Shown piece by piece: positions 2,030-63,653 of a stretch of DNA of 64,000 nt. The position numbers and the translations under genes were made by a program. This DNA is from Mariprofundus sp. (lineage in GTDB: Bacteria > Pseudomonadota > Zetaproteobacteria > Mariprofundales > Mariprofundaceae): positions 217,154 through 281,153 of the forward strand of contig JAJFLH010000035.1 of assembly GCA_021772775.1 (NCBI GenBank). Direction: 5' to 3'. Position 1 is the stretch's first letter. Every line of letters starts with the position of its first letter. The notes beneath the pieces were generated by a model that saw only the letters and a list, made by a program, of their open reading frames with translations, made no database searches and was not told where the DNA came from.

Positions 2030-2039
2030 CTGCAGCAAT

Positions 2040-2321
2040 ATGGATCTTCTATGGGTAGGGCTAATTTTAGTTGGTTCATTTCTGATTGTATTTATACCAT
2101 CATTCTCTGGCCTCTTGAATCCAGTGTATTCAGTCTGGAGCAAGATCTACAAAAAAGGTATAAGCAGTAAATATCCGGTTATATTCCTTTCATTCATCAT
2201 GATAGTCCCAATGCTTATTGCGCTTGAGATATCTTATTTTAACGAGCTTATCTTCGCAGCTGTCTTCGGAAGTGTTTTTGGCTTTTGCTTTGGCTTTATG
2301 AAATACAGTGAATATCGTTAA
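2040..2321 (+). CDS. small membrane protein
   Basis: Multiple hydrophobic segments; co-directional with preceding pair. Confidence 0.5.
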   Translation: MDLLWVGLILVGSFLIVFIPSFSGLLNPVYSVWSKIYKKGISSKYPVIFLSFIMIVPMLIALEISYFNELIFAAVFGSVFGFCFGFMKYSEYR

Positions 2322-2350
2322 CCACCACCCCTTCCTTTAATATTTAATTA

Positions 2351-2379
2351 GACCCTGCTTCGGCGGGGTCTTTTTTTTG
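2351..2379 (+). terminator. rho-independent terminator
   Basis: gaccctgcttcggcggggtc followed by tttttttt. Confidence 0.8.
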
Positions 2380-2407
2380 CCCAAAATCTCCCGTCTCAAA
2401 GTAAATA

Positions 2408-2450
2408 TAGCGTTTCGCTATTGACATATCACATAGCTTATCGCTATACT
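2408..2450 (+). promoter_or_regulatory. early phage promoter with two operator-like dyads
   Basis: TTGACA (2421-2426), 18-nt spacer, TATACT (2445-2450). Dyads tagcgtttcgcta (2408-2420) and tagcttatcgcta (2434-2446) overlap both hexamers. Confidence 0.65.
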
Positions 2451-2520
2451 TCGCCATGTCGGAGAGACAATACGCCAACAAGGTATTTGCCAGATAAGAC
2501 ACGGGGAAATGGAGGCGGTT

Positions 2521-2805
2521 ATGGGCTTAGATTCATATGGCGACTGGATACACACAGATGATGCAGCTGAAGAGCTGAGGAGTGATGAAGACTTTCTTGG
2601 CAATGTTATCGAAGCATTGCGAAAATCATCATCTGCATCTTACGCAGATCAGAATGAAGTAATCGGAATCGCTATTCACTGCGATGCGATGGCTGTTCAT
2701 GAAGCCTTTCTGGATAAACTAACGGGTGATCAAATGGACAGTGCAGAATCTGCAAGCACAGTGATTGATCTCGGCAACTCATCTGATTGGAGGATTGCGA
2801 CATGA
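2521..2805 (+). CDS. hypothetical phage protein
   Basis: ORF with RBS-like ggaggcgg before ATG 2521; overlaps next gene by ATGA. Confidence 0.5.
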   Translation: MGLDSYGDWIHTDDAAEELRSDEDFLGNVIEALRKSSSASYADQNEVIGIAIHCDAMAVHEAFLDKLTGDQMDSAESASTVIDLGNSSDWRIAT

Positions 2806-2975
2806 TCACTGTACATAATGTTGAGTCAGTAGAGATAAAGCACAGACGTATCTTGCGCGGCAAACCATGCCATTTCGATGTAGTTGAGATGGTTATCAAA
2901 ACGACTGACGGTGATCAACGGATCAGACTAGAAACTGAAAGAATGGATCTATCTTTCAGGGAGGTTAAATCATGA
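2802..2975 (+). CDS. hypothetical small phage protein
   Basis: ATGA overlaps at both ends. Confidence 0.5.
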   Translation: MITVHNVESVEIKHRRILRGKPCHFDVVEMVIKTTDGDQRIRLETERMDLSFREVKS

Positions 2976-3073
2976 TCAAGTCACTAATTAAGCGACTTTT
3001 CTGCAAGCGCACAACTTACAGTTACATAACACTCAAATCAGGTCAGATGATGGCAGTTGAGGTGTATAGATGA
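2972..3073 (+). CDS. micro-ORF MIKSLIKRLFCKRTTYSYITLKSGQMMAVEVYR
   Basis: ATGA overlap with 2802-2975 and with 3070-3165; absent from ORF track. Confidence 0.35.
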   Translation: MIKSLIKRLFCKRTTYSYITLKSGQMMAVEVYR

Positions 3074-3165
3074 ACCCCGAACTAATTGCAGCCATATTAT
3101 TAACCGGATCGTGCTTATCCATGCTCTACGCAGCCGAACTATTTTCAAGGCACCCGAAGAAATGA
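3070..3165 (+). CDS. micro-ORF MNPELIAAILLTGSCLSMLYAAELFSRHPKK, single TM-like
   Basis: ATGA overlaps with both neighbours; hydrophobic segment; absent from ORF track. Confidence 0.4.
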   Translation: MNPELIAAILLTGSCLSMLYAAELFSRHPKK

Positions 3166-3284
3166 AAGCGCTAGAGATATTCTTCGCTTTTTTACCAGCG
3201 ATAATAATTGGTCTGATATTGATACATAACGAAAAAAAGAAACTACTAACTGAGTACAACCCTTGGGGTACAGGAGGAAGGTAA
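3162..3284 (+). CDS. micro-ORF MKALEIFFAFLPAIIIGLILIHNEKKKLLTEYNPWGTGGR, single TM-like
   Basis: ATGA overlap; hydrophobic segment; in frame within track ORF 3057-3284. Confidence 0.4.
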   Translation: MKALEIFFAFLPAIIIGLILIHNEKKKLLTEYNPWGTGGR

Positions 3285-3285
3285 A

Positions 3286-4215
3286 ATGAGTGAACAAGAA
3301 GTGATGGTAATGGAAAATTCAACAGTGGCGATGTTGAATAAATCAGAGATCGACCAGCAGATATCCACTGCAAAAAAATACCCACGATCAATTAAAACAT
3401 TCCGTGATGAAACTTTAGCAATGGTAACACTTAATGAAGGTGTAGCAGCTGAGTGTATTTATTCACTTCCGCGTGGTGGAAAGACAATTGAAGGGCCAAG
3501 TGCGCGATTTGCTGAAGTTGTCGCATCGGCCTGGGGCAACAGCAGGGTTGGTGCAAGAGTAGTAAGCGATCAAGGTAACTTTGTAACAGCTCAAGGTGTG
3601 TTCCATGATCTTGAAAAGAACGTAGCTATCACCTATGAAGTGCAGCGCCGTATTACTGACCGAAACGGCAGACGATACAGCGATGATATGATTGTTGTTA
3701 CCGCAAACGCTGCTTGTTCAGTCGCATTGAGGAACGCCATTTTAAAAGGTGTGCCTAAAGCTTTCTGGTCTGAAATGTATTCAGCTGCGCGATCAACCGT
3801 TATGGGTGATTTCCAGACACTGGCAAATCGCCGTGCTGAAGCCTTAAAGGCATTCATGAAATACGGAGTATCACAAGAGCAGATCTGCGCAACCCTTGGC
3901 GTTGCAGGCGTTGAAGATATCGGACTTGAAAACCTCGTAACACTTCGCGGGATGCTGACTGCCATTAAAGATGGTGACACAACCCCAGAACAGGCATTTG
4001 CACCACAAAACACCACCAGCGCCGGAGATCATAAAAAAGATGATCGAAAAGCATGTACTGCTGAGGCGTTTGAATCCAAGAGTGTTGATTGGAAAAAGGT
4101 GATTATTGCCAATAAGAAAACTCCTGCTGCATTAATCGCCACCATTGAAACAAAGGAAACTTTGTCAGATGAACAAAAACTAACAATTGAGTCTTGGGCT
4201 CACGAAAACGATTAA
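3286..4215 (+). CDS. phage recombination-associated protein (usual partner of YqaJ exonuclease; putative annealing function)
   Basis: KYPRSIKTFRDETLAM...LPRGGKTIEGPSARFAEVVASAWGN pattern recalled from phage proteins next to YqaJ/exonuclease genes; immediately upstream of the exonuclease here. Confidence 0.5.
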   Translation: MSEQEVMVMENSTVAMLNKSEIDQQISTAKKYPRSIKTFRDETLAMVTLNEGVAAECIYSLPRGGKTIEGPSARFAEVVASAWGNSRVGARVVSDQGNFVTAQGVFHDLEKNVAITYEVQRRITDRNGRRYSDDMIVVTANAACSVALRNAILKGVPKAFWSEMYSAARSTVMGDFQTLANRRAEALKAFMKYGVSQEQICATLGVAGVEDIGLENLVTLRGMLTAIKDGDTTPEQAFAPQNTTSAGDHKKDDRKACTAEAFESKSVDWKKVIIANKKTPAALIATIETKETLSDEQKLTIESWAHEND

Positions 4216-43552: not shown

Positions 43553-44617
43553 CTAAACTGAATAATACTCTCTATACCAAGCTACAAACTTTGCAACACC
43601 CTCTTCCACTGGAGTATCGGGTTTATAGCCGACCTCGCGAACAAGATCATCCACATTGGCATAGGTGGCAGGAACATCACCATCTTGTAGTGGCATGAAG
43701 TTCTTTTTAGCTTCCATGCCCAATGCCTTTTCAATGGCCCCAACATAATCCATTAACTCGACTGGGCTGGAGTTGCCTATGTTGTACACCCTCCAGGGAG
43801 CCTTGCTTGTACCAGGATCAGGGGCCTTGCCTGTCCATTCAGGATTGGCTGTCGCGGTCTTATCCAGCACTCTGATCACGCCTTCAACAATATCATCTAC
43901 ATAAGTAAAGTCGCGTCTCATTTTACCGTGATTGAACACATTAATGGCTTTGCCCTCTAGTATTGCCTTGGTAAAAAGAAAGAGAGCCATATCAGGGCGA
44001 CCCCAAGGGCCGTAGACAGTGAAAAAACGCAGACCGGTGGTTGGCAGATCAAACAGGTTCGAATAGGTATGCGCCATCAACTCATTAGCTTTTTTACTGG
44101 CAGCATACAATGATAAAGGATGATCCACATTATCATGCACCGAGAACGGCATCGTTTCGTTGGCCCCATAAACCGAAGATGATGAAGCATAGACCAGATG
44201 TTTCACACTGGTGTGGCGACATCCCTCAATAATATTGGTGAATCCCACGATATTACTGTCGATATAGGCCTGCGGATTCTCAATCGAATAACGCACCCCA
44301 GCCTGCGCGGCAAGATTCACCACTTTATCGAATTTCTCTTCAGCAAACAGTGCTTCCATACCCTCACGGTCAGAAAGATCCATCTTCACTAGGCTGAAAT
44401 TCTCGTGATCTGAGAATCGAGCCAGACGAGCCTTTTTCAGACTAACCTCATAATAATCGTTGAGATTATCCAGCCCCACCACTTCATCACCGCGTTCCAG
44501 CAAACGAATACACAGATGCGAACCAATAAACCCGGCTGCGCCGGTGACAAGGATCTTCTGCGGCGAAGCCGCTGAAGATTCTTCGTGAGGGGTAAGATGT
44601 GAGATGTGAAGTGTCAT
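43553..44617 (-). CDS. NAD-dependent epimerase (UDP-glucuronate epimerase-like)
   Basis: [45 protein letters not shown] ... [11 protein letters not shown]. Domain starts well inside track ORF 43553-44836; upstream 73 aa are S23-like. Confidence 0.93.
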
Positions 44618-45050
44618 TTTTTTTACTACCTTTTGTTGTATGGAGTGAATCAGTCCACCAAGCTTTGCGAACAATTCGTTGATATGAGACATAACCGATT
44701 CAACTTCATCGATATATCCCAGTGACTTGCTAATTAAAATCTGCGTTTCTAACTCACTCAAGGAGCCACGAGCAATAAAAAGATACTGGAGAAACTCTCT
44801 ACCACCAGATCTCGCTGCTCCCTCAGCAATATTCATTTACACATCGTGTGTACTCCCCTTGCAGGGCGCTAAACGCGTGCAATGCTGCTTCCTGAATCAT
44901 TGTTGATGGAATACTAACAGCTGCACGCTGCATTTGGCTAATCAACCCAAACTTCTCGCTGTCAGGAAATGATTTAGTCAAATCATAGGTATGTTTTATT
45001 AACTGCATACCCAGTTGCCAAACATGGAGATCATGATGTTTCCTTTTCAC
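44618..45050 (-). pseudogene. S23/IVP-type four-helix-bundle gene, split by ~70-bp insertion/frameshift
   Basis: N-half VKRKHHDLHVWQLGMQLIKHTYDLTKSFPDSEKFGLISQMQRAAVSIPS (ORF 44823-45131); C-half [43 protein letters not shown] (ORF 43553-44836). Confidence 0.75.
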
Positions 45051-47381: not shown

Positions 47382-48107
47382 TCATCGTTTCTGACACACC
47401 CCAGTCGCAGCCACCCCTCGTGTAACTAATGCACAATAAAGAGCAAGCCTACCAGAAGATTTCACTGCCTTAAAAACTTCCCCTCCCCTATTCCCTTCTG
47501 CTGTGATAAAATATTCAAGAATTAGCTGACGGCTATGCGTATCAAGGTGTCGCCAAGATAACAGACTCAGCTGTATTATGGATGGCAAAGTCGCCTCCTC
47601 CCATGGCCCTGTTTTCAGAAGTTGCAGCAGAGACCTTTTAAACTCTGCATCCAGCTCCCCCAAACGCGCCTTTGACAGGGCAATATTCATCCAACCATAT
47701 GGCCATGCTGGTCGCTGCTGAGTAACTTGCCTGTAGTACGCAACCGACTTTTCTCCATAAAGCTTTATTTCATCCCATTTTTTTTCCATTCTCACACTTC
47801 GAAAATCATATACACGCCCTACTGCATTTAACATCGTTGCATTGTGTTCATTTCCATCCATCGAAGAGAGAGCAAATAACTCTAGCTCCTTCCATTCATT
47901 CAGTGTTGGTAGCTCTTTGCTCTCATACCAGTGATCCAATGTAAAATTCACATAATATTGATTGAGATAAATGAGGCCCGACAAAACAGACTTTACAGAC
48001 AAAAAAACAAGAGCCACCAACAACAATAGAGCAATAAGCCTTCGTTTATTCGTACCAAAATCGCTCTGACTACCCATCACGCCTTCAATCATGCACAAAC
48101 ATGCCAC
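47382..48107 (-). CDS. hypothetical membrane-anchored protein of EPS operon
   Basis: N-terminal TM then soluble helical region; overlaps 3' end of the CpsB-like gene. Confidence 0.5.
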   Translation of the reverse strand: MACLCMIEGVMGSQSDFGTNKRRLIALLLLVALVFLSVKSVLSGLIYLNQYYVNFTLDHWYESKELPTLNEWKELELFALSSMDGNEHNATMLNAVGRVYDFRSVRMEKKWDEIKLYGEKSVAYYRQVTQQRPAWPYGWMNIALSKARLGELDAEFKRSLLQLLKTGPWEEATLPSIIQLSLLSWRHLDTHSRQLILEYFITAEGNRGGEVFKAVKSSGRLALYCALVTRGVAATGVCQKR

Positions 48108-48816
48108 TGACTAAAGCCAGCGGATTATCATATACAAGAGTACGAGCCCTCTCTTCCCCTATGATTAGTGCTGCGGCTAATACCGCATCAGAAAGCTGTG
48201 GTGGCCTAAACCTCAGATTATGGGCATCAGTTGCCAATAGAGTAACCCAACCCTGTTGCATCATGAATTCCGCTGCATAACGGCTGGAGTCACCAAATCG
48301 ACTCGCAAGCGAACCAGCTGTTAGCTGTAATTTACACCCCATATCTACAAACCGCCGAATCTTATTACAATTACGTATAATATCCTTATTACGTTCAGGA
48401 TGAGCAATCAAAACCCTAATCTGATGCCTATACAGCCACTGTATTAATTGCTCTGTCCCAGGTGGAATATGACTATGTGGCAATTCCAACAATATTGTTT
48501 TATTCCCGTTTAAATCAACAAACAGTGGAATATCATCATTCATCAACATTGGTAGAATTTCTGGGCAAAGACGAACCTCAGCCCCCATAGCTACACTTAA
48601 TTTAATACCCGCATCTTTTAAAGCAAGTACAAACAAATCAAAAGCTATAGAAATAGTTTCTCTGTTATTATCAAACACACCAGGCTGAATATGTGGTGTA
48701 AATACCATATGTGTAATTCCGTCAGCCACTGCATATCTTGCTAACTCCAATGATTGATTCAGATCAGTGACACCATCATCAATTCCGGGGAGCAGATGAC
48801 AATGAATATCAATCAT
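48085..48816 (-). CDS. CpsB/CapC (PHP-type) tyrosine phosphatase
   Basis: MIDIHCHLLPGIDDGVTDLNQSLELARYAVADGITHMVFTPHIQPG. Confidence 0.92.
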   Translation of the reverse strand: MIDIHCHLLPGIDDGVTDLNQSLELARYAVADGITHMVFTPHIQPGVFDNNRETISIAFDLFVLALKDAGIKLSVAMGAEVRLCPEILPMLMNDDIPLFVDLNGNKTILLELPHSHIPPGTEQLIQWLYRHQIRVLIAHPERNKDIIRNCNKIRRFVDMGCKLQLTAGSLASRFGDSSRYAAEFMMQQGWVTLLATDAHNLRFRPPQLSDAVLAAALIIGEERARTLVYDNPLALVSGMFVHD

Positions 48817-48902: not shown

Positions 48903-50894
48903 TCACGAATTGATTTCACTGTATCCATATTGATCATAATAACCACTGTAACCATCAGCATATTTACCGGCTTCTTGGATATTGAATTTATTAAGAATAA
49001 TACCAGTAATGGGAGCACCATATTCAAGCAGACGGTTCACACCACTCTTCACTGCTTTTTCATGTGTAGAATCAGCCTCAACAACATATACTATAGATTG
49101 AGCATATTTAGATAAAACGAGCGAATCACTGACAGCCTGCAGTGGAGGAGAATCAATCACAATGCGGTCATAATGATTTTCCAGCACAGCAATCATACTG
49201 GAAAATCGCGAAGAAGAGAGCAGCTCCAGAGGATTTGGTGGAAGCACCCCACTGGCTAACACATCTATACCAATCTGATCAATATGCTTGATACAATCCT
49301 GAAAACTGTGAGTACCCGCTACAATAGAACTAACTCCCAACTTTTCTTCGTGCAAACCAAACACCCTAGCAAGCGATGGACGTCTAAGATCGGCTCCTAT
49401 AAGAAGCACCCTCTCCATCTGGCCCATTGCTATGGCGAGGTTACACGAAACAACCGTTTTCCCTTCCCCTGGCACCGATGAAGTCACCAAAATAACCTTA
49501 TGAGGGTTATCTAAACTAGATAGCACCAAACCCGTACGGATCGTACGCATAGCTTCAGAAAAAGATGTCAACTTTGGATCAAGCATCGCAAAAGCCTGTT
49601 CTTTTCTATTCATTCTATTTCCCTTCACGAGAGGTAGTAGGCCAAGAACAGGCAGGTTTAACCTCTCCTCAAGGTCGCCAGTGCTTTTAAATGTCTTATC
49701 TAACGCTTCATACAAAAAAGACAACAACACAGCAAACATGAGGCTCGCAAAGAAAACCATCATGACAATTGATCTCTTATTAGGCTTAAATGGACTTCTT
49801 GGTGTCACCGCAGCATCTGTAATTCGCGCATTTACCCTTTCAAGTTCCATAGATTGAGCCGCTTCCTTCAGACCATTCAAGAAAGTTTCATACAGTTTTC
49901 TGTAGCTATCCACATTCCCTTGTAGTTCACGTAACCTCACAGCCTTCCGACCAATAGAATGAATTTTTTCCTCCATCCTCGCCCGTGAGCTTTCTGCCTC
50001 CACCATCTCTGATTGAGCCGCAATCAATTTGGGGTGCCTAGGGCCATATACATCACTTAATTCTTTATATTTAGTACGGGCTATTAAAAGCCTGGAGGTA
50101 TGTTCTTGCAACTCCTTTTCAGCCAATGTACCAACACCTTGAACATCAATTAAGCCATGGCGCTCCCTGTATGTCTGAAGCAGCTGATCCGATTCTTGCA
50201 AGTTTTTTTTCAGCACCAGCAGACGGTGCTCCATCCAAGCCGTGGACGAACGACTCACCTCAGCACGTGCAGAACGAAGGTCACTTATATAGGCTTGAAC
50301 TATTCCATTGGCAATATCTGCAGCCAATTTAGAGCTAGTTGATTGATAAGTCACTTGAATCAACTGAGTCTCTGGAATCAGTCTAACCGACATTCCACCC
50401 TGTATTTTGAGAATATATCCATCCATCAGAGTTGCTGGATCGGGTTGTTGATTCACTATCCCCGACTTAGGCGTCAATGCAAACCATTTCGTCATTGATG
50501 ATAAAAAATAGCCCGGTTTTTCTTTTACCCCAACAAAATCAGCAGAGTTTGCCAAATTCAAATCGACAATGACTTTTTCAGCCAGATGACGAGACTTCAA
50601 AATTTCCAACTGGGTCAAATAATACTCTTTAGCTTGACTGCGGAACCTTATCATAGACTCCAGAGAAAAACTTTTTTGCCGTTCAGGCTCAATCAAAATA
50701 GTAGCTGTCGCCTTGTAAACAGGCACCATAGAATAAACGATCAAACTAGCAACAAAGGTCACAAGAGTCGCAAATAAAACAATACTCCACTTACGACGCT
50801 TAATGACCTTAAGGTATTGAGTAAGATCTAAGTCTGCTTCCGCAAAGCCATCCTGCATCTGCTGACTTTGTTTCCATCCTCCAGCATCAGACAT
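48903..50894 (-). CDS. polysaccharide chain-length determinant / tyrosine autokinase (Wzc-like)
   Basis: Wzz-type N-terminus (LTQYLKVIKRRKWSIVLFATLVTFVASLIVYS), Walker A VTSSVPGEGKTVVSCNLA, Tyr-rich C-terminus YADGYSGYYDQYGYSEINS. Confidence 0.95.
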   Translation of the reverse strand: MSDAGGWKQSQQMQDGFAEADLDLTQYLKVIKRRKWSIVLFATLVTFVASLIVYSMVPVYKATATILIEPERQKSFSLESMIRFRSQAKEYYLTQLEILKSRHLAEKVIVDLNLANSADFVGVKEKPGYFLSSMTKWFALTPKSGIVNQQPDPATLMDGYILKIQGGMSVRLIPETQLIQVTYQSTSSKLAADIANGIVQAYISDLRSARAEVSRSSTAWMEHRLLVLKKNLQESDQLLQTYRERHGLIDVQGVGTLAEKELQEHTSRLLIARTKYKELSDVYGPRHPKLIAAQSEMVEAESSRARMEEKIHSIGRKAVRLRELQGNVDSYRKLYETFLNGLKEAAQSMELERVNARITDAAVTPRSPFKPNKRSIVMMVFFASLMFAVLLSFLYEALDKTFKSTGDLEERLNLPVLGLLPLVKGNRMNRKEQAFAMLDPKLTSFSEAMRTIRTGLVLSSLDNPHKVILVTSSVPGEGKTVVSCNLAIAMGQMERVLLIGADLRRPSLARVFGLHEEKLGVSSIVAGTHSFQDCIKHIDQIGIDVLASGVLPPNPLELLSSSRFSSMIAVLENHYDRIVIDSPPLQAVSDSLVLSKYAQSIVYVVEADSTHEKAVKSGVNRLLEYGAPITGIILNKFNIQEAGKYADGYSGYYDQYGYSEINS

Positions 50895-51814
50895 TAGAAA
50901 AAACCTTCCTTTGAAGTAATCACATCGCCCGGTAAGACTTCACCATTAAGGTCTTTAACATGGATCGTTTTTTTCCCCCGCCCCTCATGAATCACATATA
51001 CCTTATCCTCATTTGACTTATCTTTCAGCCCACCAGCCATTGAAATTGCCATACGATATGTTATGCCCGGTTGATAAGAATATTTCCCTGGGCTTTTCAC
51101 TTCACCATTCACAAAGAAGAAACTCTTCTCAATCGTAAGCGTATCCCCCGGTATCATCCGTTCGCCTAGCGAAGCGTGCACCCCCTCACCAGTCGCATAA
51201 GCACTATGAATCAAAAAAATTTTATTTCTGTCAGCATCCACAGTAAAACCACCAGCAAGCGAAATTGCCTTTCGCACAGTCAGCTCAGGCTGATAAGGAT
51301 AAGCCCCAGGGTTATTCACTTCACCATTCACATAAAATGGTCGATACTCCTCTATTGTCACGCGCACCTGTGGATTAACCAAATAACCATTGGATAGATC
51401 ACCAGCTATCTTCCTCTCTAAACCAGGAAGCGTCATACCGATAACATGAATTTCACCAAGAAATGGATAACGAACATCGCCCGAAGCCCCTAAACGCACC
51501 TCAACATCCATATCGGGCTGTCCAAATACATGGATCTTAATTTTATCACCCGAACCAAGCTGATATTCATTAGTGCTACTATCTAGTGGTATATATTTTT
51601 CCTGATCTCCATCCCTGCCTAAAACTTCACCCACACTTTCATCTAAAAAGTCATCAACGACCGACACTTCGTTGGAAAAGGCAGAATAGCTAAAAAACGA
51701 GAGGCAACAGAGCAGGATAACCAGCCAGCCAGTATATTTATTCATCCAACCTTCCTTAACAACTTCATATATACGCTTGTGAATCACAATTAAGCACAGA
51801 ACATGCCAGAACAA
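50894..51814 (-). CDS. polysaccharide export outer-membrane protein (Wza-like, SLBB)
   Basis: YQLGSGDKIKIHVFGQPDMDVEVRLGASGDVRYPFLGEIHVIGMTLPGLERKIAGDL; SLBB-like repeats FVNGEV..PG.Y.YQP. Confidence 0.93.
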   Translation of the reverse strand: MFWHVLCLIVIHKRIYEVVKEGWMNKYTGWLVILLCCLSFFSYSAFSNEVSVVDDFLDESVGEVLGRDGDQEKYIPLDSSTNEYQLGSGDKIKIHVFGQPDMDVEVRLGASGDVRYPFLGEIHVIGMTLPGLERKIAGDLSNGYLVNPQVRVTIEEYRPFYVNGEVNNPGAYPYQPELTVRKAISLAGGFTVDADRNKIFLIHSAYATGEGVHASLGERMIPGDTLTIEKSFFFVNGEVKSPGKYSYQPGITYRMAISMAGGLKDKSNEDKVYVIHEGRGKKTIHVKDLNGEVLPGDVITSKEGFF

Positions 51815-51875: not shown

Positions 51876-53144
51876 TCACATAGTTCCTGTTAGATCTAGT
51901 GAGAAAATATGCTGACGATAAACTGGTTTGGCAACTCCTCCCACAGCTAGGTCAGAAGTCCTATTGGAAAAATTATAACCTCCACCAATCCTAAGCCAAC
52001 GACGTACCTTATAATCCAGACCAACAGAGGCATGCCACATCGTTTCCTTGTGACTAAAGTTTGTAAAACCAGCAACTGCAGTAGAGTTATATTTAGTGAT
52101 ATCATAACCAATTGAGGTACTATGTTTTAAAGCTCCAGACCAGACATGATCCCACGAAAGACTATTCGCATTAGAAACAGTATAACCAAACTCAGCCTCA
52201 CTTCCCACAGCTGTATTTGAACTATTAATACTCAACGTTGAATCACTTCTAGGAAGCCAGCTAGCACCAAGTTCCCAGCTAAAAATGCCTCCCCCAGCTA
52301 TTTGCTTATATGAGGTCGATGAATAACCAAGTCGTAAACGACCTGTTGTTTTAGATTTATTGTCCCAATCAAGTCCGAGGTAATAAGCTTGCCCAGTATT
52401 ATCCAATTTATTTAGAGCATAGATAAAGTTATTGCTAATATAACGCGCCTCAAACAGTGCTCGACCTTTAGTACGAACCGGGAATGATAAGGCAAAGCCT
52501 GCTTTCATCGTATCTACATCACCATCTTTACCACGATTCAAATCATCATATCGTTTCGTGGAAAGACCACCAGACAAAGCAATAATTCCACGTATCCCAT
52601 AACTTACCTCTCCTTCCAGACTGGAGGTTGTTAACTTATCCGGTAACACAATTGCAGGAGCCCCTAAAACCTGATCTACAGTTTTTAATTCATTTGTTTT
52701 TTTGTAATCAACATAGCCTCTGGTGTTAAGTCGTTTTGATAATTTAAAAGCACCATCGAGAGCAATTGATTGACTTGTAGTATCTGCTTTACTGACACTT
52801 TTATGCATGGTTTTATCAAACTGATAATGAACACTAACATCACTTGAATCAGTGTGGGTACCAATTTCCAAAGATGGGCTAATCGTTGAGATTAAACTAC
52901 TAGTCTTTGCACTTGTAGTATCAGCCGAAAAAACATTACTGTTATACTCTTCTCTCACATCCAAAGCCGGATATATTTTCAACCCGCCAAAAAGAACGGG
53001 AACCGGCTCCTGAGCTGCGGCCTCAGCCGCCCCCAGAAAAACAAAATTTAACAAAACGAGCACACAAAAACGACGCTTCATCTTTCTCCCCAATACCAAA
53101 TAGCTGACGAACCTTACACAATTAATTATAAAGATACTACTCAC
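51876..53144 (-). CDS. outer-membrane beta-barrel protein of EPS operon
   Basis: Signal peptide, alternating amphipathic strands, terminal HIFSLDLTGTM; DVREEYNSNVFSADT start typical of EPS-associated barrels. Confidence 0.7.
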   Translation of the reverse strand: MSSIFIINCVRFVSYLVLGRKMKRRFCVLVLLNFVFLGAAEAAAQEPVPVLFGGLKIYPALDVREEYNSNVFSADTTSAKTSSLISTISPSLEIGTHTDSSDVSVHYQFDKTMHKSVSKADTTSQSIALDGAFKLSKRLNTRGYVDYKKTNELKTVDQVLGAPAIVLPDKLTTSSLEGEVSYGIRGIIALSGGLSTKRYDDLNRGKDGDVDTMKAGFALSFPVRTKGRALFEARYISNNFIYALNKLDNTGQAYYLGLDWDNKSKTTGRLRLGYSSTSYKQIAGGGIFSWELGASWLPRSDSTLSINSSNTAVGSEAEFGYTVSNANSLSWDHVWSGALKHSTSIGYDITKYNSTAVAGFTNFSHKETMWHASVGLDYKVRRWLRIGGGYNFSNRTSDLAVGGVAKPVYRQHIFSLDLTGTM

Positions 53145-53372: not shown

Positions 53373-54524
53373 TTAATTTTTTTCTATAGCATCAATCTTA
53401 CGATACCGAGCAGATCGTTTCATTCGCTCTTTAAACCCACCTTGAATAATGTGTACATTAACCATTTTAGCAACATGCTTCACTGTACACCAAATAACCC
53501 CAAATAAAGTCATAGCCCCATATAATCGGCGAACTCTTCCAGGTGAGAACTCCGACCGAAGCGACTCAAACCATCCCAGCCTCACCCCTGTCCGACTTAA
53601 AGCTCGATCTAAAAATTTACTCGCATTAAAACCTTCATCGGTAATCGGATTATCCAAAAAGAATAGAGAGTTAACACTTTCTAGATAAGCTTGGTATACA
53701 TCACCATACCCCTCCATCCCATCTTCAATGAACTTCCAGTCAATTTGATGACGGTACTTATATGTCAATATAGCGAAGTGATGCATCTGCCGCAGATCAA
53801 GCTGACAATAATCAAAACATTTATTATCAAGCTGGCAATGTAGAATATTATGCATAATTTGATGCTCAACACATAAAACCTGCACAGCCACGCTCTCTCC
53901 CCATAGACTAATATTCACAGAGTGATCAATGAGTGATGAGCTCTTTAGAAGAGCACCTCCGGTTTTGGATAACAGCTTATGATGAATCTCCAAAGCGGCA
54001 AGTTCATCATCATGATAGAGTCTGGGTAAATGTTTATCTGAAGGCTCAGAAGGAACGTCAGCATTAAAGTAGCCTGCACTTTTTATAACTTCATCAGCAG
54101 CATCCAATTCATCATCCGCAACAAGAAAATCGATATCAAGCATTGAACGACAGCCTTGATCACTAAACAGGTTTTCTGCCAGCGAGCCAATGCCTTTTAG
54201 CAAAACAGGTCTAATATTCTGCCTATTCAACATCGAGGAAACAGAGTGCATCTGCTGTAGCAGCTTCTGATTACGTATATCATTATGCCGATGAACCTCA
54301 CAAAGGAAACCAGCTAACTTTGCATCAACCTTATCCAACAACCCCTTATCCCTAAGTGAGACAAACAAAGCAGGTGTTAATAAAAAATAATTAGACAACG
54401 CAATAATCTTTAACCATTGCTTTTCGCACGGCAACCTATCTTTCAAACCCTCACTATTATTGGCGGGACTAAGACAAGCGCAAAGAAATCGAACACTCTC
54501 CCCATGACTGATTGATGGCTTCAC
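53373..54524 (-). CDS. nucleotidyltransferase family protein (HprK-related system)
   Basis: IRPVLLKGIGSLAENLFSDQGCRSMLDIDFLVADDELDAADEVI; overlaps the HprK-like gene by 4 nt. Confidence 0.78.
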   Translation of the reverse strand: MKPSISHGESVRFLCACLSPANNSEGLKDRLPCEKQWLKIIALSNYFLLTPALFVSLRDKGLLDKVDAKLAGFLCEVHRHNDIRNQKLLQQMHSVSSMLNRQNIRPVLLKGIGSLAENLFSDQGCRSMLDIDFLVADDELDAADEVIKSAGYFNADVPSEPSDKHLPRLYHDDELAALEIHHKLLSKTGGALLKSSSLIDHSVNISLWGESVAVQVLCVEHQIMHNILHCQLDNKCFDYCQLDLRQMHHFAILTYKYRHQIDWKFIEDGMEGYGDVYQAYLESVNSLFFLDNPITDEGFNASKFLDRALSRTGVRLGWFESLRSEFSPGRVRRLYGAMTLFGVIWCTVKHVAKMVNVHIIQGGFKERMKRSARYRKIDAIEKN

Positions 54525-55675
54525 GATAGCCCTTCAATAGCTTCAATAGCTTGATCAAAATGCTGATAACTTAATTGATAAGCATCCAAGCCAGCCAGCC
54601 AGTTCAATATTGATTCTGCTTTTCCTACACCCAGTTCATCCTGAATTTGATAACCACAGGTATCAAGTTTTGCCAAAGCTGCCAGCACTGTTAAGGGCTT
54701 AAGCTCGCCAGCACAATCATCACAGAGCCGCGGGAAAATAATATGCGTTGCAAATATTCTTTTTTTTTCGCCCCTCTCTACCATTGGCGGCATTATATAA
54801 CGTATCGCCTGCCCATCAAAACGACAGTGAATCGATGATTCTTTCAATTCAGGATATAATGATTGTAATAGTGACCAACTCCCCTGCTTAAGGGTAATCG
54901 GCATCGGTATGGAATAGACACCCAAATCATTCAGATTAACCACTGTAACCTCATCAGATAGCAGCTGATATCCCTGTTTAAGCAGAGCTGACGTTAATGT
55001 GCTTTTCCCAGCTCCGGAAACACCAGGCAATAGCACACAGAGATCATTTTTATATAGTGCCGCCGAATGTATAGTCAGCAAATATGGGAGACGCTGATAT
55101 GCCACCGTTCGCATATAGTCCAACAAAAAGGGAAAAAGCTGTAAAAAGGGCAGCGCATGATGCAACTCTTTACCATTGCTCAATACCGTAATCATCTCTT
55201 CGTTCGGAACAAACTCAAATATAATCTCTGGTATAAACTCAACTTCAATACATTCAATATGGACCAGCTCTGCATAAATAGCATCCAAGCAGAGGTCAGA
55301 CCCTGAACTAATTTGAAAACAGGTCCCGAGAAGCTTATAACACTTACCATCCACACGCGATAATGGCAACGAATCAGGATAATCTATTGCAGCAACATAA
55401 CCAACTGCGTTCGATAGAAACCTACTATTTAAAATCCTTTCACAGTAATTCAATACTGTTAAAATATCATTTTTTTTCTCTTCAGGACAGTCAGCCATAA
55501 TCTCTTCAACACTTTCACCCTGCTCTAAACGCAAAAAAATATTCGCCGAGACCCCCTCAAATCCATACAGAGTATCGCTATATTTTGAATGGACAGCAAG
55601 ACCTTGATTGTGAAGAAAAATTGTAATTCCAGAAACCGAAGACGGTAATCGTTGCCATGGTAACTCATCGTTCAT
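54521..55675 (-). CDS. HprK-related kinase with PqqD-like N-terminal region
   Basis: [53 protein letters not shown] (P-loop plus HprK-like region); N-terminal ~90 aa PqqD-like. Confidence 0.78.
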   Translation of the reverse strand: MNDELPWQRLPSSVSGITIFLHNQGLAVHSKYSDTLYGFEGVSANIFLRLEQGESVEEIMADCPEEKKNDILTVLNYCERILNSRFLSNAVGYVAAIDYPDSLPLSRVDGKCYKLLGTCFQISSGSDLCLDAIYAELVHIECIEVEFIPEIIFEFVPNEEMITVLSNGKELHHALPFLQLFPFLLDYMRTVAYQRLPYLLTIHSAALYKNDLCVLLPGVSGAGKSTLTSALLKQGYQLLSDEVTVVNLNDLGVYSIPMPITLKQGSWSLLQSLYPELKESSIHCRFDGQAIRYIMPPMVERGEKKRIFATHIIFPRLCDDCAGELKPLTVLAALAKLDTCGYQIQDELGVGKAESILNWLAGLDAYQLSYQHFDQAIEAIEGLS

Positions 55676-55788
55676 ATTGATTCGTTAACCACCTTTTTTT
55701 ATCGCGAGAACGACTCTTCAATAGCAAATCCAAAAATTTTAGTTATATTCCCCCCCCTACTTGATGAGGGCCACCACTTAAACTCCAA

Positions 55789-56001
55789 TTACAAAAGCCC
55801 ACCAGGTAGAGCATCTGGACCAGACACCGCAGCAGCAGAGCGCTTAGGCGACATCAATACATACATACCTATTGGAGCCACTACAGCATAATTACCAAAT
55901 TTTTTAATAAGCTCACGCTTTCGCTGACCTGCTTCTGTCAGGGCCTCTTTACTTTCACCAGGAGCGACCTTATTTTCAGTTGATTGTTTATCTTCTTTCA
56001 T
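55789..56001 (-). CDS. 70-aa small peptide, candidate substrate of the HprK-like kinase
   Basis: MKEDKQSTENKVAPGESKEALTEAGQRKRELIKKFGNYAVVAPIGMYVLMSPKRSAAAVSGPDALPGGLL; directly upstream and co-directional with the kinase/NTase genes. Confidence 0.6.
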   Translation of the reverse strand: MKEDKQSTENKVAPGESKEALTEAGQRKRELIKKFGNYAVVAPIGMYVLMSPKRSAAAVSGPDALPGGLL

Positions 56002-56014
56002 AGTTGCTCCTTAA

Positions 56015-56482
56015 TCATAACGTTGTATCACTTGCTACAGATGAATAAACATTGATTCGAACCGATGAGTTATAACTGTGCAAATGCACTTTATTCAGAT
56101 CATAAGCCCTGAGCCAATATGTATAGGTAACATTCTGAGTTAAAGCAGTATCAAAAAATCTAAACTTGCCCCCTGGAATAGTGTGAAGATTACTATAGCC
56201 ATTATCTCCTAGAACTTCCAACTCATAATAGGCAACTACCGTACTGAGTCGTGCCCAATCCAACTGCGCACTGTTTCCACTTTTCAAAATTATACTCAAA
56301 GGGTGAACCGTAACTGTTTGCGCTACAGCTCCCGCAGCAACATTAGTTGCAGTAGCCGCATTAGTTATAGCACTTGTAGTCGAAACAAGGTTAGTCGGGC
56401 CTGCATCACTGGCCCCCTGAGAGCACCCAGCCAACAACCATAGCGATAGTATAAAAGCTAACAATAAAGTTTCTTTCTTCAT
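56015..56482 (-). CDS. lipoprotein with fibronectin-III-like domain
   Basis: Lipobox LLAGCSQG; QLDWARLSTVVAYYELEVLGDNGYSN...YTYWLRAYDLNKV. Confidence 0.65.
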   Translation of the reverse strand: MKKETLLLAFILSLWLLAGCSQGASDAGPTNLVSTTSAITNAATATNVAAGAVAQTVTVHPLSIILKSGNSAQLDWARLSTVVAYYELEVLGDNGYSNLHTIPGGKFRFFDTALTQNVTYTYWLRAYDLNKVHLHSYNSSVRINVYSSVASDTTL

Positions 56483-56507: not shown

Positions 56508-57284
56508 TTATGGAGTACATCCACCAGAAGGACAGATCTTCTTCTGAACCCTACGGCCTGTGGTGCTGTAATATACATTACTTAGACCTCCAGGTATCAA
56601 CAATGAAATACCAGGCTTACCCGCATCTCTCGTACTTGTACTCTTTTGATAAAAACGAATCGCGATAGCTGTGCCTGCACTGGGCCATGGAGACCCATCA
56701 GCTCGAGTTGCAGGTACAGTAAAAAAATCAGTAAAGTTAAAGTAACTCGCAACCTCTGCACCATATGTCCAAGGTGCAGTTGATGTCTGGGTACTGGTAA
56801 CTGATTTTCCATACAAGGGTGAAATGTAGAACTCTCCACATGTCGGAAACACTGCATTTGTGCAATCGAACATCGCAATATGGGTAGCATAACCGCCCTC
56901 ATAACCCACCAGTGACCAGTCTAATTGATACGACTGCCCGGCCTTCATAACTTCAGGTATATTCAGCGTTTCGATCATTGGTGCAATACGGTTTTGCGCC
57001 TCTAGTCGGGTACTTTGAGCAACGAGAGGATCCGTATCCCTTTCAAACTCAACTAAATCACTATAACCATCACCATCGGTATCACTAGTCGCATTCATAT
57101 CAACCAAGCCAGCCCCTCCAGCTATCCCGGTTTGATATTGCTCCCAATTGTCGGGCAGGCCATCACCATCACTATCGTTTCCAGGCGCACTATATCTAGG
57201 ATCACTAAGTGTAGCAGCTAATATCACCCCTGAAAAAGAGAGAATAGCCAGAAGCAGTAGACCACATTTCATCAAATTATTCAT
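56508..57284 (-). CDS. secreted protein with calcium-binding (TSP3-like) repeats
   Basis: Signal peptide; DSDGDGLPDNWEQYQ, DTDGDGYSDLVEFE; C-terminal LLIPGGLSNVYYSTTGRRVQKKI. Confidence 0.8.
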   Translation of the reverse strand: MNNLMKCGLLLLAILSFSGVILAATLSDPRYSAPGNDSDGDGLPDNWEQYQTGIAGGAGLVDMNATSDTDGDGYSDLVEFERDTDPLVAQSTRLEAQNRIAPMIETLNIPEVMKAGQSYQLDWSLVGYEGGYATHIAMFDCTNAVFPTCGEFYISPLYGKSVTSTQTSTAPWTYGAEVASYFNFTDFFTVPATRADGSPWPSAGTAIAIRFYQKSTSTRDAGKPGISLLIPGGLSNVYYSTTGRRVQKKICPSGGCTP

Positions 57285-57303
57285 CTTTAGCTCCTATTCA
57301 CAC

Positions 57304-60300
57304 TTACGGCGTAATACGCTTACTAATACGACGACCTGTTGTATCGTAATAGTTAGTCGCCACGCCACCTGGAATAAGCAGCGAAACATTTGTATTTCCC
57401 GCCGCCTTTTCTGCAGCACTAACTTGATAGAAACGAACCGCTATCTCTGTCCCTGGCGCAGTAGCCCAAGCACCATTATTTATATTCAAGGCAGGTATCA
57501 CAACAGTAGCTTGATAAGTCGTATCGTTAGCATAAATACCATTATAAGACCAATTAGACTGTGTAGTCGCTTGCGGCGTCATAGTTATCGGCGCCCACCT
57601 GTTCGCATCATTATAATTTGAGCCACAAGTACCAGCTGCAACATTGGTACAATCAAATATGGCCATTACAATTTCATAAGAACCAAGATCATAACCCACC
57701 ACTCGCATATTTACAGTATATGATCCAGTAGCAACAGTCATTGTATCCGGCATATCAAATAGCTCAACAATGGGGGGAAGCCTGCGCTGCGACTCAAAAT
57801 GCCGGTCTTCTACCGCCACAGGATCTGTTCCATTATTAAATTCATCAATATTGGCAATGCCATCATTATCACTATCTGCAGCAGGGCTTGCAGCTAAATT
57901 TCCATAATTCAACATTTCCCACTCATCAGAAAGCCCATCAGCATCAGTGTCAGCACCATGACGACTGTTACCAAGGAACAGATCAAGCGCTAGATTCGTA
58001 GTTGAATCAAACTGTGTCTTTCCAGCATTCCATTCATCTGGGTTCCCGTCTCCATCAGCATCAAGACTCGCTGCGGCATCATTAATAAAAGCATCCAGTC
58101 TTAAACCTGTAGTAGAGACGACGTCAACCCCATTAATTTGAAGCCATGCATCAGGGTAACCATCTTTATCTGTATCCAGATGGGCTGATGCATCATTCGG
58201 GAAATCATCACTTGCGTCAGGAAAACCATCACCATCCGAATCACTGACGAGTAAACCCTGTGCTGCTGTCACTTGAGAAAAAGAGTCATCCCCCCAAGCA
58301 TCCACGGTTCCACCGGCTGTTACTATCAAAGTATGAGCCAGTCCGGCAGAAATATTACTCACCGCCGCGAAAGCGGGATCTGCAGCACTTGCGTATTTAG
58401 CTGGAACTGCCAGTGAACCCGCAGTTGTTAGCGGCAAAGTGGTATTGTAGCCCCATGATAAGACTGTTCCATCAGACATAAGTGCCAGAGAATGATAAGC
58501 CCCTGCCGCGACCTTAGACACTGTCGGCGCATTTGGTAGAGGGGCCGCTGCCAAAACAGTAGGAATTGTAGTTTGACCCAGTGTATTCGCACCCCAGCCA
58601 ACGACAGTACCATCGGCCAATAGCGCTAGAGAATGTGTAGCGCCGGCTGCAATTGCAGTCACCGTTTGCCCAAAGACAGGTATATTAATCTGAAGCGAGG
58701 TATTCACCCCCCACCCTATCACTGCCCCAGCATCTGTTAATGCCAGAGAGTGATTACCACCAGCGGCAATCGCAGTTATAGAGGTACTTCCAACCGGAAG
58801 AGTGGCAACCACAAGCTTATTATTTGCAGCATCACCCCAAGCTGAGACTGTTCCATCAGACTTTAGAGCCAGAGAGTGACTATCACCAGCAGCTATCGCC
58901 ACCACACCTGTCAAACCAACATTAGCCGGAGCTTGCCCTTTTAGATTTGAACCCCATGCGACGACAGTTTTATCGGCCTTCAGTGCAAGTGAATGATTCA
59001 TGCCTCCTGCAACAGCAATCACATCGGTAAGACCATTGGCCACTACTGATTCAGGTGAACGACCAAAGCCCTCCACAACACCATTAGACTTCAATACCAG
59101 GGAGCTATACGCCCCTGCAGCAATCCCACCAGCCGAGCCTGGAAAAGTACCATCTTCAAAATGAGCTTTGTCACTTTTACCATCATTGTTAAAATCACTT
59201 ATTGAAGTTGCAGTAGTCGTGTTATTAAAATAGAAGATTTCCCAATTATCCCCAACGCCATCTGCAGCACCCTCACCACCACTGCCATCTAACCAATCAC
59301 GGGAATTGGTCGGAAAAGCATCCACGACCAGCGTAGTAATGGCCACTGCCGCATCAATATCAATTTTTTGCTGTACGCTTAAACCCGTCATTGTAGCTGT
59401 ATCATGTATAACATCAGGATAACCATCACCATCACTATCCTGACTGGCGGCTGCGTCATTTGGAAAATAATCCTTATGTAGTGCTGGATTTGAAGTTGAA
59501 ACTACGTCAACACCATTCACAACATGCCAATTATCCTTATCCGGGTCCCCATCACCATCGGTATCCACACTCGCTGCAGGATCGTTTGGAAAAATATCCA
59601 AGTGCAGATTTGTGGTGGTAGGTATAACTACATTATTCCCATCAAGATGCCAGGCATCAGGATCACCATCACTATCACTATCGATATGGGCAGATGCATC
59701 TAGAGGGAAGGCATCTTGCAGATCAGTAAAGCCATCATTATCGTCATCTAGATCTTCAATTAAAGTATTGCAAGCTGCAGTTCCAAGCTGGGCTGGTGTT
59801 GCATTTGCATGGAAAGCATCCGGCATGGCGTCCCCATCCGTGTTTACACTCGCAGCAATACAGCTAGGAAAAGCATCAACCCGATCCACCACACCATCAC
59901 CATCACTGTCTGTTGGGAAAATCACATTATCAACAAATACTGTATCCTGAGGTATCCCCGCTGCAGATACAGCAGCCCCGCCTACACCATCCCTTGTATA
60001 GGTCCACTTAAAACGGTGTAAACCTGCAGAAAGCGGGAAACTCGCACCTTGCCATGCAAGTTCCCCATCCCATTTAGCTACTGCAGTATGCACAACGACA
60101 GTGGTCGTACCGCCCGGATTAACTATCGTGTCAGTAAATTCCAGATAATCGTATACCGCTTCAGTATTTATTTTAAAATCAAATGTCAGATCACCTGCCA
60201 GCACAGTTTTTTCTATCTCAAACGAAGTAACCGAATTATGGATGTTCGAAAAAGCAGACACCCCCATCGTGCCCTCGGTAACATCAGCAGCTTGCACAGC

Positions 60301-60783
60301 AGCTGACGTGGTTACCCAAGCCAGGTTATTGGGCGTAACTGTCAAAATTGGAGTTCCACGCGGGCTCGTCCAAGTGTGTGTTTCACTTAATAAAGTCCAA
60401 CCTGCTGGAAAGGCACCAGTCGAAGGGAACAACTCATTAACTAATCCACCAATAGTTGCATCCAGTGGATTGCTATCAATCGAAAGCTTCGGAACAGTGG
60501 TAGAGTCCGCCTGCACCGCCTGAACACCCCCAACCATATGGAAGCTATCAGGATATCCATCCAGATCTGTATCCACACTGGCAGCTGGATCAGAGATAAA
60601 AGCATCAGACACATTTAGAACGCCATCGCCATCATCATCCGTCGCAGTTATATTCAAGATCAAAGCAGCTTGCGCAACACCAATATTGATCACAAGACTA
60701 AATAACAGCGCCATTAACAACGCGCCTGCTGACGCCCATCCCCGACCGAATGCTGTATAATCAATTTGTTTCATCTGCTGCAT
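57304..60783 (-). CDS. large secreted protein with TSP3-like Ca-binding repeats and RCC1-like repeats
   Basis: Many DTDGDGYPD-type motifs; RCC1-like repeats VVAIAAGDSHSLALKSDGTVSAWGD; C-terminal LLIPGGVATNYYDTTGRRISKRITP. Confidence 0.9.
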   Translation of the reverse strand: MQQMKQIDYTAFGRGWASAGALLMALLFSLVINIGVAQAALILNITATDDDGDGVLNVSDAFISDPAASVDTDLDGYPDSFHMVGGVQAVQADSTTVPKLSIDSNPLDATIGGLVNELFPSTGAFPAGWTLLSETHTWTSPRGTPILTVTPNNLAWVTTSAAVQAADVTEGTMGVSAFSNIHNSVTSFEIEKTVLAGDLTFDFKINTEAVYDYLEFTDTIVNPGGTTTVVVHTAVAKWDGELAWQGASFPLSAGLHRFKWTYTRDGVGGAAVSAAGIPQDTVFVDNVIFPTDSDGDGVVDRVDAFPSCIAASVNTDGDAMPDAFHANATPAQLGTAACNTLIEDLDDDNDGFTDLQDAFPLDASAHIDSDSDGDPDAWHLDGNNVVIPTTTNLHLDIFPNDPAASVDTDGDGDPDKDNWHVVNGVDVVSTSNPALHKDYFPNDAAASQDSDGDGYPDVIHDTATMTGLSVQQKIDIDAAVAITTLVVDAFPTNSRDWLDGSGGEGAADGVGDNWEIFYFNNTTTATSISDFNNDGKSDKAHFEDGTFPGSAGGIAAGAYSSLVLKSNGVVEGFGRSPESVVANGLTDVIAVAGGMNHSLALKADKTVVAWGSNLKGQAPANVGLTGVVAIAAGDSHSLALKSDGTVSAWGDAANNKLVVATLPVGSTSITAIAAGGNHSLALTDAGAVIGWGVNTSLQINIPVFGQTVTAIAAGATHSLALLADGTVVGWGANTLGQTTIPTVLAAAPLPNAPTVSKVAAGAYHSLALMSDGTVLSWGYNTTLPLTTAGSLAVPAKYASAADPAFAAVSNISAGLAHTLIVTAGGTVDAWGDDSFSQVTAAQGLLVSDSDGDGFPDASDDFPNDASAHLDTDKDGYPDAWLQINGVDVVSTTGLRLDAFINDAAASLDADGDGNPDEWNAGKTQFDSTTNLALDLFLGNSRHGADTDADGLSDEWEMLNYGNLAASPAADSDNDGIANIDEFNNGTDPVAVEDRHFESQRRLPPIVELFDMPDTMTVATGSYTVNMRVVGYDLGSYEIVMAIFDCTNVAAGTCGSNYNDANRWAPITMTPQATTQSNWSYNGIYANDTTYQATVVIPALNINNGAWATAPGTEIAVRFYQVSAAEKAAGNTNVSLLIPGGVATNYYDTTGRRISKRITP

Positions 60784-62555: not shown

Positions 62556-63653
62556 TTACGCATCAGCAAGATAAGCTTTATATGCATCAGCCACTCCATC
62601 TGCAAGAGATATTTTTGCCCTCCAGCCTAAGCAATTCAACTGACTGACATCCATCAATTTTCTAGGTGTCCCGTCCGGTTTAGATGCATCCCACACCACC
62701 TCACCTTCAAAACCAACAATGCCTTGCGCCAGCTCTGCAACATCACGAATAGTAATATCCGACCCAACACCTACGTTATAAAGCCGAGAGCTATTGATTG
62801 CTGATTGCTGATCAATCATAAGAAAAAGGCAAGCATCGGCCATATCATCGACATGTAAAAATTCACGATACGGTGAACCTGTACCCCAAAGCCTCACTTG
62901 AGGAGCATGATTGCTAATCTGCAACAGATCATCACCCACTCTCTCTAAGCCCAGACAAGAGAGAACATCATAAGGTATCTCCCCATAACGCAGTTCATCG
63001 GCCTTCATAGCATCAATATCACCAGCCAAAGCCAACTTCGCCAAATGAAACTTGCGAATCAGAGCAGGCAACACATGTGACTTCTCGAGATCAAAATTAT
63101 CGTTCGGGCCATAAAGATTGGTTGGCATCGCTGAAATAGCATCAAAACCGTACTGTTTGTGATAGGCCTGACACATCTTAACACCGGCTATCTTGGCAAT
63201 GGCATACCATTCATTCGTTGCCTCCAACTCACCGGAAAGAAGGCATGACTCTGGCATGGGTTGCGGAGCAAGTTTCGGATAGATACATGACGAACCAAGA
63301 AATAATAATCGTTGCACCCCAAAACGATAAGATGAATCAATCACATTAGTCTGAATTTGCAGATTATCGCGAATAAAGTCGGCGGGATATCTGTCATTGG
63401 CAAGAATCCCTCCCACTTTGGCTGCGGCCAAAATAACGTAATCTGGACTCTCGCTAATAAAAAATGCATCTACAGCAGCCTGGTTGCGCAAATCAAGTTC
63501 AGCAGAAGCCCTCAATAAAAGGTTCTCAAAACCTTTAGCCTGCAGGGCTCGAACAATCGCAGAGCCAACCAAGCCTCGATGCCCTGCTATATAAATCTTT
63601 GCATTTTTATCCATGATATCCCCTACCCACTGTGATACTAACTTCACGAACAC
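62556..63653 (-). CDS. fcl: GDP-L-fucose synthase
   Basis: KIYIAGHRGLVGSAIVRALQAKGFENLLLR ... LFLGSSCIYPKLAPQPMPESCLLSGELEATNEWYAIAKIAGVKMCQAY ... MPTNLYGPNDNFD. Confidence 0.96.
   Translation of the reverse strand: MFVKLVSQWVGDIMDKNAKIYIAGHRGLVGSAIVRALQAKGFENLLLRASAELDLRNQAAVDAFFISESPDYVILAAAKVGGILANDRYPADFIRDNLQIQTNVIDSSYRFGVQRLLFLGSSCIYPKLAPQPMPESCLLSGELEATNEWYAIAKIAGVKMCQAYHKQYGFDAISAMPTNLYGPNDNFDLEKSHVLPALIRKFHLAKLALAGDIDAMKADELRYGEIPYDVLSCLGLERVGDDLLQISNHAPQVRLWGTGSPYREFLHVDDMADACLFLMIDQQSAINSSRLYNVGVGSDITIRDVAELAQGIVGFEGEVVWDASKPDGTPRKLMDVSQLNCLGWRAKISLADGVADAYKAYLADA

Follow-up and report, generated by a model that had tools for sequence, protein, structure and literature searches.

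According to the account of lasso peptide tailoring in a review, the Ser phosphorylated by the HprK-like kinases PadeK, ThcoK and PsmK is a C-terminal one, the nucleotidyltransferase homologue PsmN is required for hexoses on the phospho-Ser of pseudomycoidin, and the published kinase alignment contains an essential His-Lys-Asp-Asp set (PMC9266682). The linear polyphosphorylated peptides (LPPs) of Bacillota were described in 2026, and their loci, which are capsule loci, encode a precursor, an RRE, an HprK-like kinase, an NTP transferase, a SipW-like peptidase and an exporter (PMC13381572). LppK phosphorylates Ser3 of the core of a linear precursor, the RRE and the nucleotidyltransferase (NTase) are separate proteins, and deletion of the NTase caused no detectable change (PMC13381572). 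In our literature searches, we found no paper naming HprK-related kinase A, TIGR04352, the peptide reported here, or a substrate of HPr-rel-A kinases or PF14907 transferases, and nothing on PF14907 together with exopolysaccharide (EPS).

The window, a 64,000-nt stretch of a Mariprofundus genome, contains a peptide-kinase-NTase cassette. Like LPP loci, it combines a small precursor, an RRE, an HprK-like kinase and an uncharacterised NTP transferase in a capsule or EPS setting; a conserved N-terminus, a variable C-terminus, one to three precursors and a modified Ser soon after the leader (here predicted) are also common to both. The LPP leader, however, reads YxxPxVLxHQxIxFETxxS whereas that of the window is Tat-like, the LPP RRE is a separate protein whereas that of the window is fused to the kinase, and the LPP core genes include a SipW-type peptidase and an MsbA-like exporter whereas the cassette has no exporter gene. 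A search of the whole window genome for the SipW-type peptidase (TIGR02228) found no match. Membership in the LPP class was rejected on this genome-wide absence and the different leader motif, although a kinase, an RRE and an NTase do lie beside a small precursor.

Compared with the tailoring of paeninodin and pseudomycoidin (PadeK/ThcoK, PsmK/PsmN), as far as the review describes it, the cassette likewise has an HprK-like Ser kinase and a nucleotidyltransferase homologue for a peptide precursor, but the leader is different. The lasso B2 leader protease (PF13471) had no match in the whole window genome, and no asparagine-synthase-like macrolactam cyclase was found among the annotated neighbouring genes, so that lasso membership was rejected as well; the original prediction, made from the DNA letters, had already noted the missing cyclase/protease pair. 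With HPr kinase/phosphorylase, the window kinase shares the fold and the P-loop, whereas identity is low, the RRE is fused and the HprK cut-offs are not reached. The HPr-rel-A systems (NCBIfam kinase TIGR04352 and PqqD family peptide chaperone TIGR04353) have related kinases and a PqqD-type domain, and the HPr-rel-A loci examined also carry a PF14907-type NTase and an upstream RR-leader protein. They differ in that the window kinase falls under the TIGR04352 cut-off and has a fused RRE, and in that the classic substrates are larger (~130-250 aa).

Layout and genomic setting of the locus

The peptide, kinase and NTase genes are located directly ahead of porin-Wza-Wzc-CpsB-VpsP and RfaH-like genes, all on the minus strand (Table 1). 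The layout agrees with the original prediction, since the kinase stop and the NTase start share 4 nt (GTGA) and the 70-aa ORF lies ahead of both. An AAGGAG Shine-Dalgarno sequence is present at 56007-56012 (-), 5 nt ahead of the peptide ATG. Scans for promoters and terminators found sites no more numerous than in shuffled sequences, and the operon limits are therefore drawn from spacing and strand only. The window genome comprises 3.12 Mb in 40 contigs, and the class sample comprises 78 genomes. The porin-Wza-Wzc-CpsB-VpsP operon also occurs in congeners, where the cassette is missing, indicating that the cassette is an accessory addition on the 5' side of the operon.

Table 1. Features of the cassette and its neighbourhood (window coordinates)
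Feature	Coordinates	Strand	Basis
70-aa precursor-like peptide with Tat-like leader	55789..56001	-	ORF, Shine-Dalgarno sequence, peptide-family HMM match, homologues beside fused RRE-kinases
K28-R29, at the twin-arginine position (nearly all homologues have RR)	55915..55920	-	alignment
FGNYAVVAPIGMYVLM, leader hydrophobic region	55852..55899	-	alignment
C-terminal tail, residues 59-70, candidate core after putative cleavage region	55792..55827	-	sequence; predicted cleavage site
Ser60, predicted modification site (second Arg +31)	55822..55824	-	Ser offsets in aligned peptides; predicted site
RRE-fused HprK-like kinase, 384 aa	54521..55675	-	TIGR04352, PEPCK/HprK fold, conserved residues
N-terminal PqqD/RRE domain of kinase	55421..55675	-	predicted structure, PDB matches, hhalign
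P-loop GVSGAGKST	54998..55024	-	kinase alignment
PF14907 NTase, 383 aa, GTG start	53373..54524	-	PF14907, E 1.6e-30
155-aa lipoprotein-like, FN3-like protein, upstream of peptide	56015..56482	-	weak fn3 match
TSP3-repeat secreted protein, 258 aa, upstream	56508..57284	-	PF18884
1159-aa protein, upstream	57304..60783	-	weak TSP3-type family matches; RCC1-like repeats by eye
BBP2-type outer-membrane porin, EPS operon	51876..53144	-	PF10082
Wza/EpsE-type polysaccharide export protein	50894..51814	-	PF02563, SLBB
Wzc-type chain-length determinant/tyrosine kinase	48903..50894	-	TIGR01007, above cut-off
CpsB/CapC-type phosphatase	48085..48816	-	PF19567
VpsP-like EPS protein	47382..48107	-	NF038257, 1.5e-18, below cut-off

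Several other features of the window were observed. The secreted 258-aa and 1159-aa neighbours (56508-60783, -) resemble each other closely at the C-terminus (LLIPGG..YY.TTGRR), which may be a common sorting or surface-attachment end as judged from their sequences. At 43553-44836 (-), a nucleotide-sugar epimerase carries an in-frame fusion to a four-helix-bundle (TIGR02436-like) segment on its upstream side, and the GDP-L-fucose synthase at 62556-63653 (-) has an apparent insertion of ~45 residues after residue 212.

The peptide, kinase and NTase genes occur together in many genomes

We gathered kinases with the same two domains through genome searches and a scan of named genomes, and then searched their loci with HMMs for the kinase, the NTase and the peptide. 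Eight aligned kinases proved too diverse a set for the collection scan, and three were used instead. A regular-expression scan of the kinase loci for Tat motifs was too blunt, missing peptides that the HMM detected, and the peptide counts were therefore taken from the HMM table.

Among 28 distinct fused-kinase loci, the NTase adjoined the kinase in 26; the other two were L022, where the contig ends, and L137, where none was found. The original prediction was to stand or fall with the conservation of the small ORF next to such kinase/NTase pairs, and a homologous peptide was found near the fused kinase in 25 of the 28 loci, directly beside the kinase or NTase in 21 and 7-9 kb off in 4. In the remaining three (L045, L062, L066), peptide genes lay elsewhere in the same genome. 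The peptide model had been built from 10 of the loci, and among the other 18 the peptide was present within the examined stretch in 15. Across 397 Pseudomonadota genomes, the kinase was present in 11 of the 12 with a strong peptide match compared to 45 of all 397 (Fisher p 1.3e-10), and co-occurrence was also significant after the model-building genomes were left out (p 4.3e-5). These 11 kinases were found by simple search, while that of the twelfth genome (L146) was found by HMM. The association of the three genes can be regarded as established.

One pair of homologous peptide genes showed 14 synonymous and 4 non-synonymous differences, and the gene is therefore most likely constrained and translated. 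Because of this synonymous excess and the homologues beside the same kinase in many genomes, the 70-aa ORF is not a chance ORF; it apparently belongs to a conserved, unnamed family that occurs with the fused kinase in many Proteobacteria. Pfam, NCBIfam and PHROGs matched no family to the window peptide, and within the class (78 genomes) no close homologue was found besides the window peptide itself. Rhizobia-like genomes and Thalassotalea have several paralogous peptides per genome. In Thalassotalea sp. ND16A (L062/L133), one kinase gene is followed by two tandem PF14907-type NTase genes, and three tandem peptide genes are located on another contig.

Co-location with EPS genes is recurrent. 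Wza and/or Wzc lay near the fused kinase in 10 of the 28 loci, while several loci had no EPS genes nearby. Thalassotalea sp. G2M2-11 repeats the order of the window, peptide-kinase-NTase-porin-Wza-Wzc, with the porin judged from sequence, and in the four loci of one genus with the peptide 7-9 kb from the kinase, a porin-Wza-Wzc block lies in between in three. The association of the cassette with EPS genes is genuine yet not universal, and is mute on the direction of any effect. The control of EPS export suggested by the original prediction was not supported: co-location recurs in about one third of the loci, and nothing in the data points to regulation.

Domains of the enzymes and features of the peptide

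The kinase matched TIGR04352 (HprK-related kinase A) with 99.5 bits (E 1.7e-28), below the 200-bit cut-off. A model of the full kinase (pLDDT 84, pTM 0.83) matched PDB structures of the PEPCK/HprK superfamily, and a sequence search of the PDB gave weak HprK matches only. In an alignment of eight diverse fused kinases, H203, K224 (in the P-loop), D241, K263 and D287 do not vary. The fold and the conservation of the catalytic residues are both established. A direct HMM search of the window kinase N-terminus found no PqqD match; PF05402 did match fused homologues at the equivalent position, and hhalign aligned this N-terminus with discrete HPr-rel-A PqqD proteins (probability 95.6, E 1.1e-8). Modelled alone, the N-terminal 95 residues form a beta3-alpha3 fold (pLDDT 85). 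In Foldseek searches of the PDB with the RRE domain, lasso RRE proteins complexed with leader peptides took six of the top seven places (TbiB1 5v1u/5v1v and B1 6jx3; probability 0.97-1.0, E 0.01-0.2). The RRE fold, which the original prediction had named as a PqqD-like N-terminus, is thereby confirmed, and from the structure matches, the profile match and PF05402 in the homologues, the kinase most likely bears its own leader-binding domain. The NTase matched PF14907 (NTP_transf_5) with 106.9 bits against a gathering score of 31.2, and its alignment showed K110, G111, R126, D130 and D132 to be invariant.

Tat is an exporter of finished proteins. The aligned peptides have a Tat-like leader, RRxFLxKFGKxAxxTP...SA, with a charged N-tail, RR-x-[FL]-[IL]-x-K-[FY]-G-K-x-A-x-[VIY]-T-P, a hydrophobic stretch and SAA or AIA in this order. 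Judged from its sequence, the N-terminal layout looks like a twin-arginine signal peptide: the SRRxFLK motif, the hydrophobic stretch and a small-residue site occur in nearly all homologues, the window peptide having KR instead. TatC is encoded in the window genome. The original prediction had quoted the KKFGNYAVVAPIGMYVLMSP segment and the SAAAVSGPDALPGGLL tail correctly; the segment (FGNYA..AP..M..L) turned out to be the leader's hydrophobic region and not a core, and the Tat-like leader had not been foreseen.

The position of a Ser past the leader is also fixed. Counted from the second Arg, a Ser stands at +31 in 20 of ~40 aligned peptides, S60 of the window included, and at +33 in 15, whereas offsets +28, +29, +32 and +38 have a Ser in 0-1 peptides each. 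Ser is also frequent at +22 and +26/+27, so that S51 and S55 are lesser candidate sites. The fixed Ser could in part mirror the composition of a signal-peptide c-region. The tails vary by clade, often with two Cys. The leader is followed by SAAPKSCRGNGTKKC in Alteromonadaceae-type genomes, by AIARSG and a tail rich in Gly in the rhizobia-like ones, and by AVSGPDALPGGLL in the window peptide, which lacks the Cys pair of Alteromonadales tails. The peptides of L022 and L058 stop at the Ser or leader end or one residue past it, and a released core therefore cannot be general. The tails of Thalassotalea-like and Methylococcaceae peptides (L134, L140, L137, L064, L162-L164) often end in GF or SF.

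A possible phosphopeptide pathway and its alternatives

The original prediction of RiPP-like logic outside a lasso system took the right direction, EPS control excepted, because the small ORF and the catalytic residues are conserved, the RRE-type domain is genuine, and the B2 protease and a SipW-type peptidase are absent from the genome. With moderate confidence, we read the locus as a RiPP-like phosphopeptide cassette in which the RRE-HprK protein phosphorylates a Tat-type precursor, the NTase decorates the phosphate and export follows. In the cytoplasm, the RRE would bind the 70-aa precursor by its leader, the kinase would phosphorylate the Ser just past the leader (predicted S60), and the PF14907 NTase may then put a sugar or nucleotidyl group on the peptide phosphate. 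The Tat-like leader would take the already modified peptide over the inner membrane, a signal peptidase would trim it, and the short modified tail would reach the periplasm or the outside, often perhaps alongside the exopolysaccharide of the neighbouring operon. The phosphorylation of a precursor Ser by LppK and the need for PsmN in hexose addition to a phospho-Ser are precedents for this reading. KR in place of RR, the missing Cys pair and the lack of a close class homologue of the window peptide count against it, as do the peptides that stop at the leader end, the possible c-region origin of the fixed Ser, the undetected effect of NTase deletion in the LPP system and the loci with no EPS genes close by.

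The conserved part of the peptides is the leader with its hydrophobic segment, and the tails are variable and almost nil in L022 and L058, as expected if the peptide were never set free but stayed in the membrane as a single-pass protein, anchoring the RRE-kinase and the NTase at the EPS export machinery. Reversible Ser phosphorylation would then regulate EPS assembly, like HprK on HPr; HprK relatives do target a Ser of a small protein, and EPS export genes are close in 10 of the 28 loci. We consider this unlikely, since the strong RR, hydrophobic stretch and AxA-like end form the layout of a cleavable Tat signal, the conserved tails of Alteromonadales (SAAPKSCRGNG..C) would be needless for a mere anchor, and many loci have no EPS genes, but it stays alive because some peptides have no tail. 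Such cassettes away from EPS genes, together with the congener operons lacking the cassette and the multiple paralogues in rhizobia-like genomes and Thalassotalea, would fit a mobile accessory locus for an antimicrobial or signalling peptide, for which the EPS site is a common insertion place and not a functional one. The identical order beside EPS genes in distant classes argues against this, no immunity gene or dedicated exporter was seen, and we regard it as quite unlikely.

The least probable alternative is that the kinase and NTase activate a small molecule or sugar that is later linked to EPS or to the exported peptide, which would be an acceptor only. Sugars and polyols are usually activated by a kinase together with an NTase (cf. 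choline), and sugar genes are close to the cassette, but the RRE fused to the kinase has its best structural counterparts in lasso B1 proteins with bound leaders, and a peptide Ser is the target of related kinases (PMC9266682, PMC13381572).

If the phosphopeptide reading is true, Tat would be in use by a RiPP-like pathway. Proteobacteria commonly encode HPr-rel-A type kinases and PF14907 transferases, for which the peptide family supplies a definite candidate substrate and a predicted modification site. The EPS co-location also has a parallel in Bacillota, where phosphorylated RiPPs are associated with capsule loci for reasons still unexplained. A wider reading, which we hold with little confidence, is that proteobacterial peptides of an unrecognised and widespread class are phosphorylated on Ser and glycosylated or nucleotidylated in the cytoplasm, exported by Tat and in some species joined to EPS, where they might serve, for example, as a peptide-phosphate-glycan anchor or cap.

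In classic HPr-rel-A loci, where PqqD is separate from the kinase, upstream proteins of ~130-250 aa carry a similar RR-leader, suggesting that proteins with an RR-leader may be the substrates of this kinase group as a whole. These putative substrates fall into two motif groups (L043, L049, L050, L057; L010, L051, L055, L059), one with CS[ILV]SG soon past the RR-leader and another with a C-terminal motif of the SCW.S or SCWNS type. L056, from the window genome's family (G049 contig 99, 1-4419), encodes a 133-aa Cys-rich RR-leader peptide at 3698-4099 (-), a radical SAM protein at 2520-3662 (-), a discrete PqqD at 2231-2554 (-) and an HprK-related kinase at 1380-2231 (-), and amounts to a RiPP-like system of the radical SAM kind whose leader is Tat-like.
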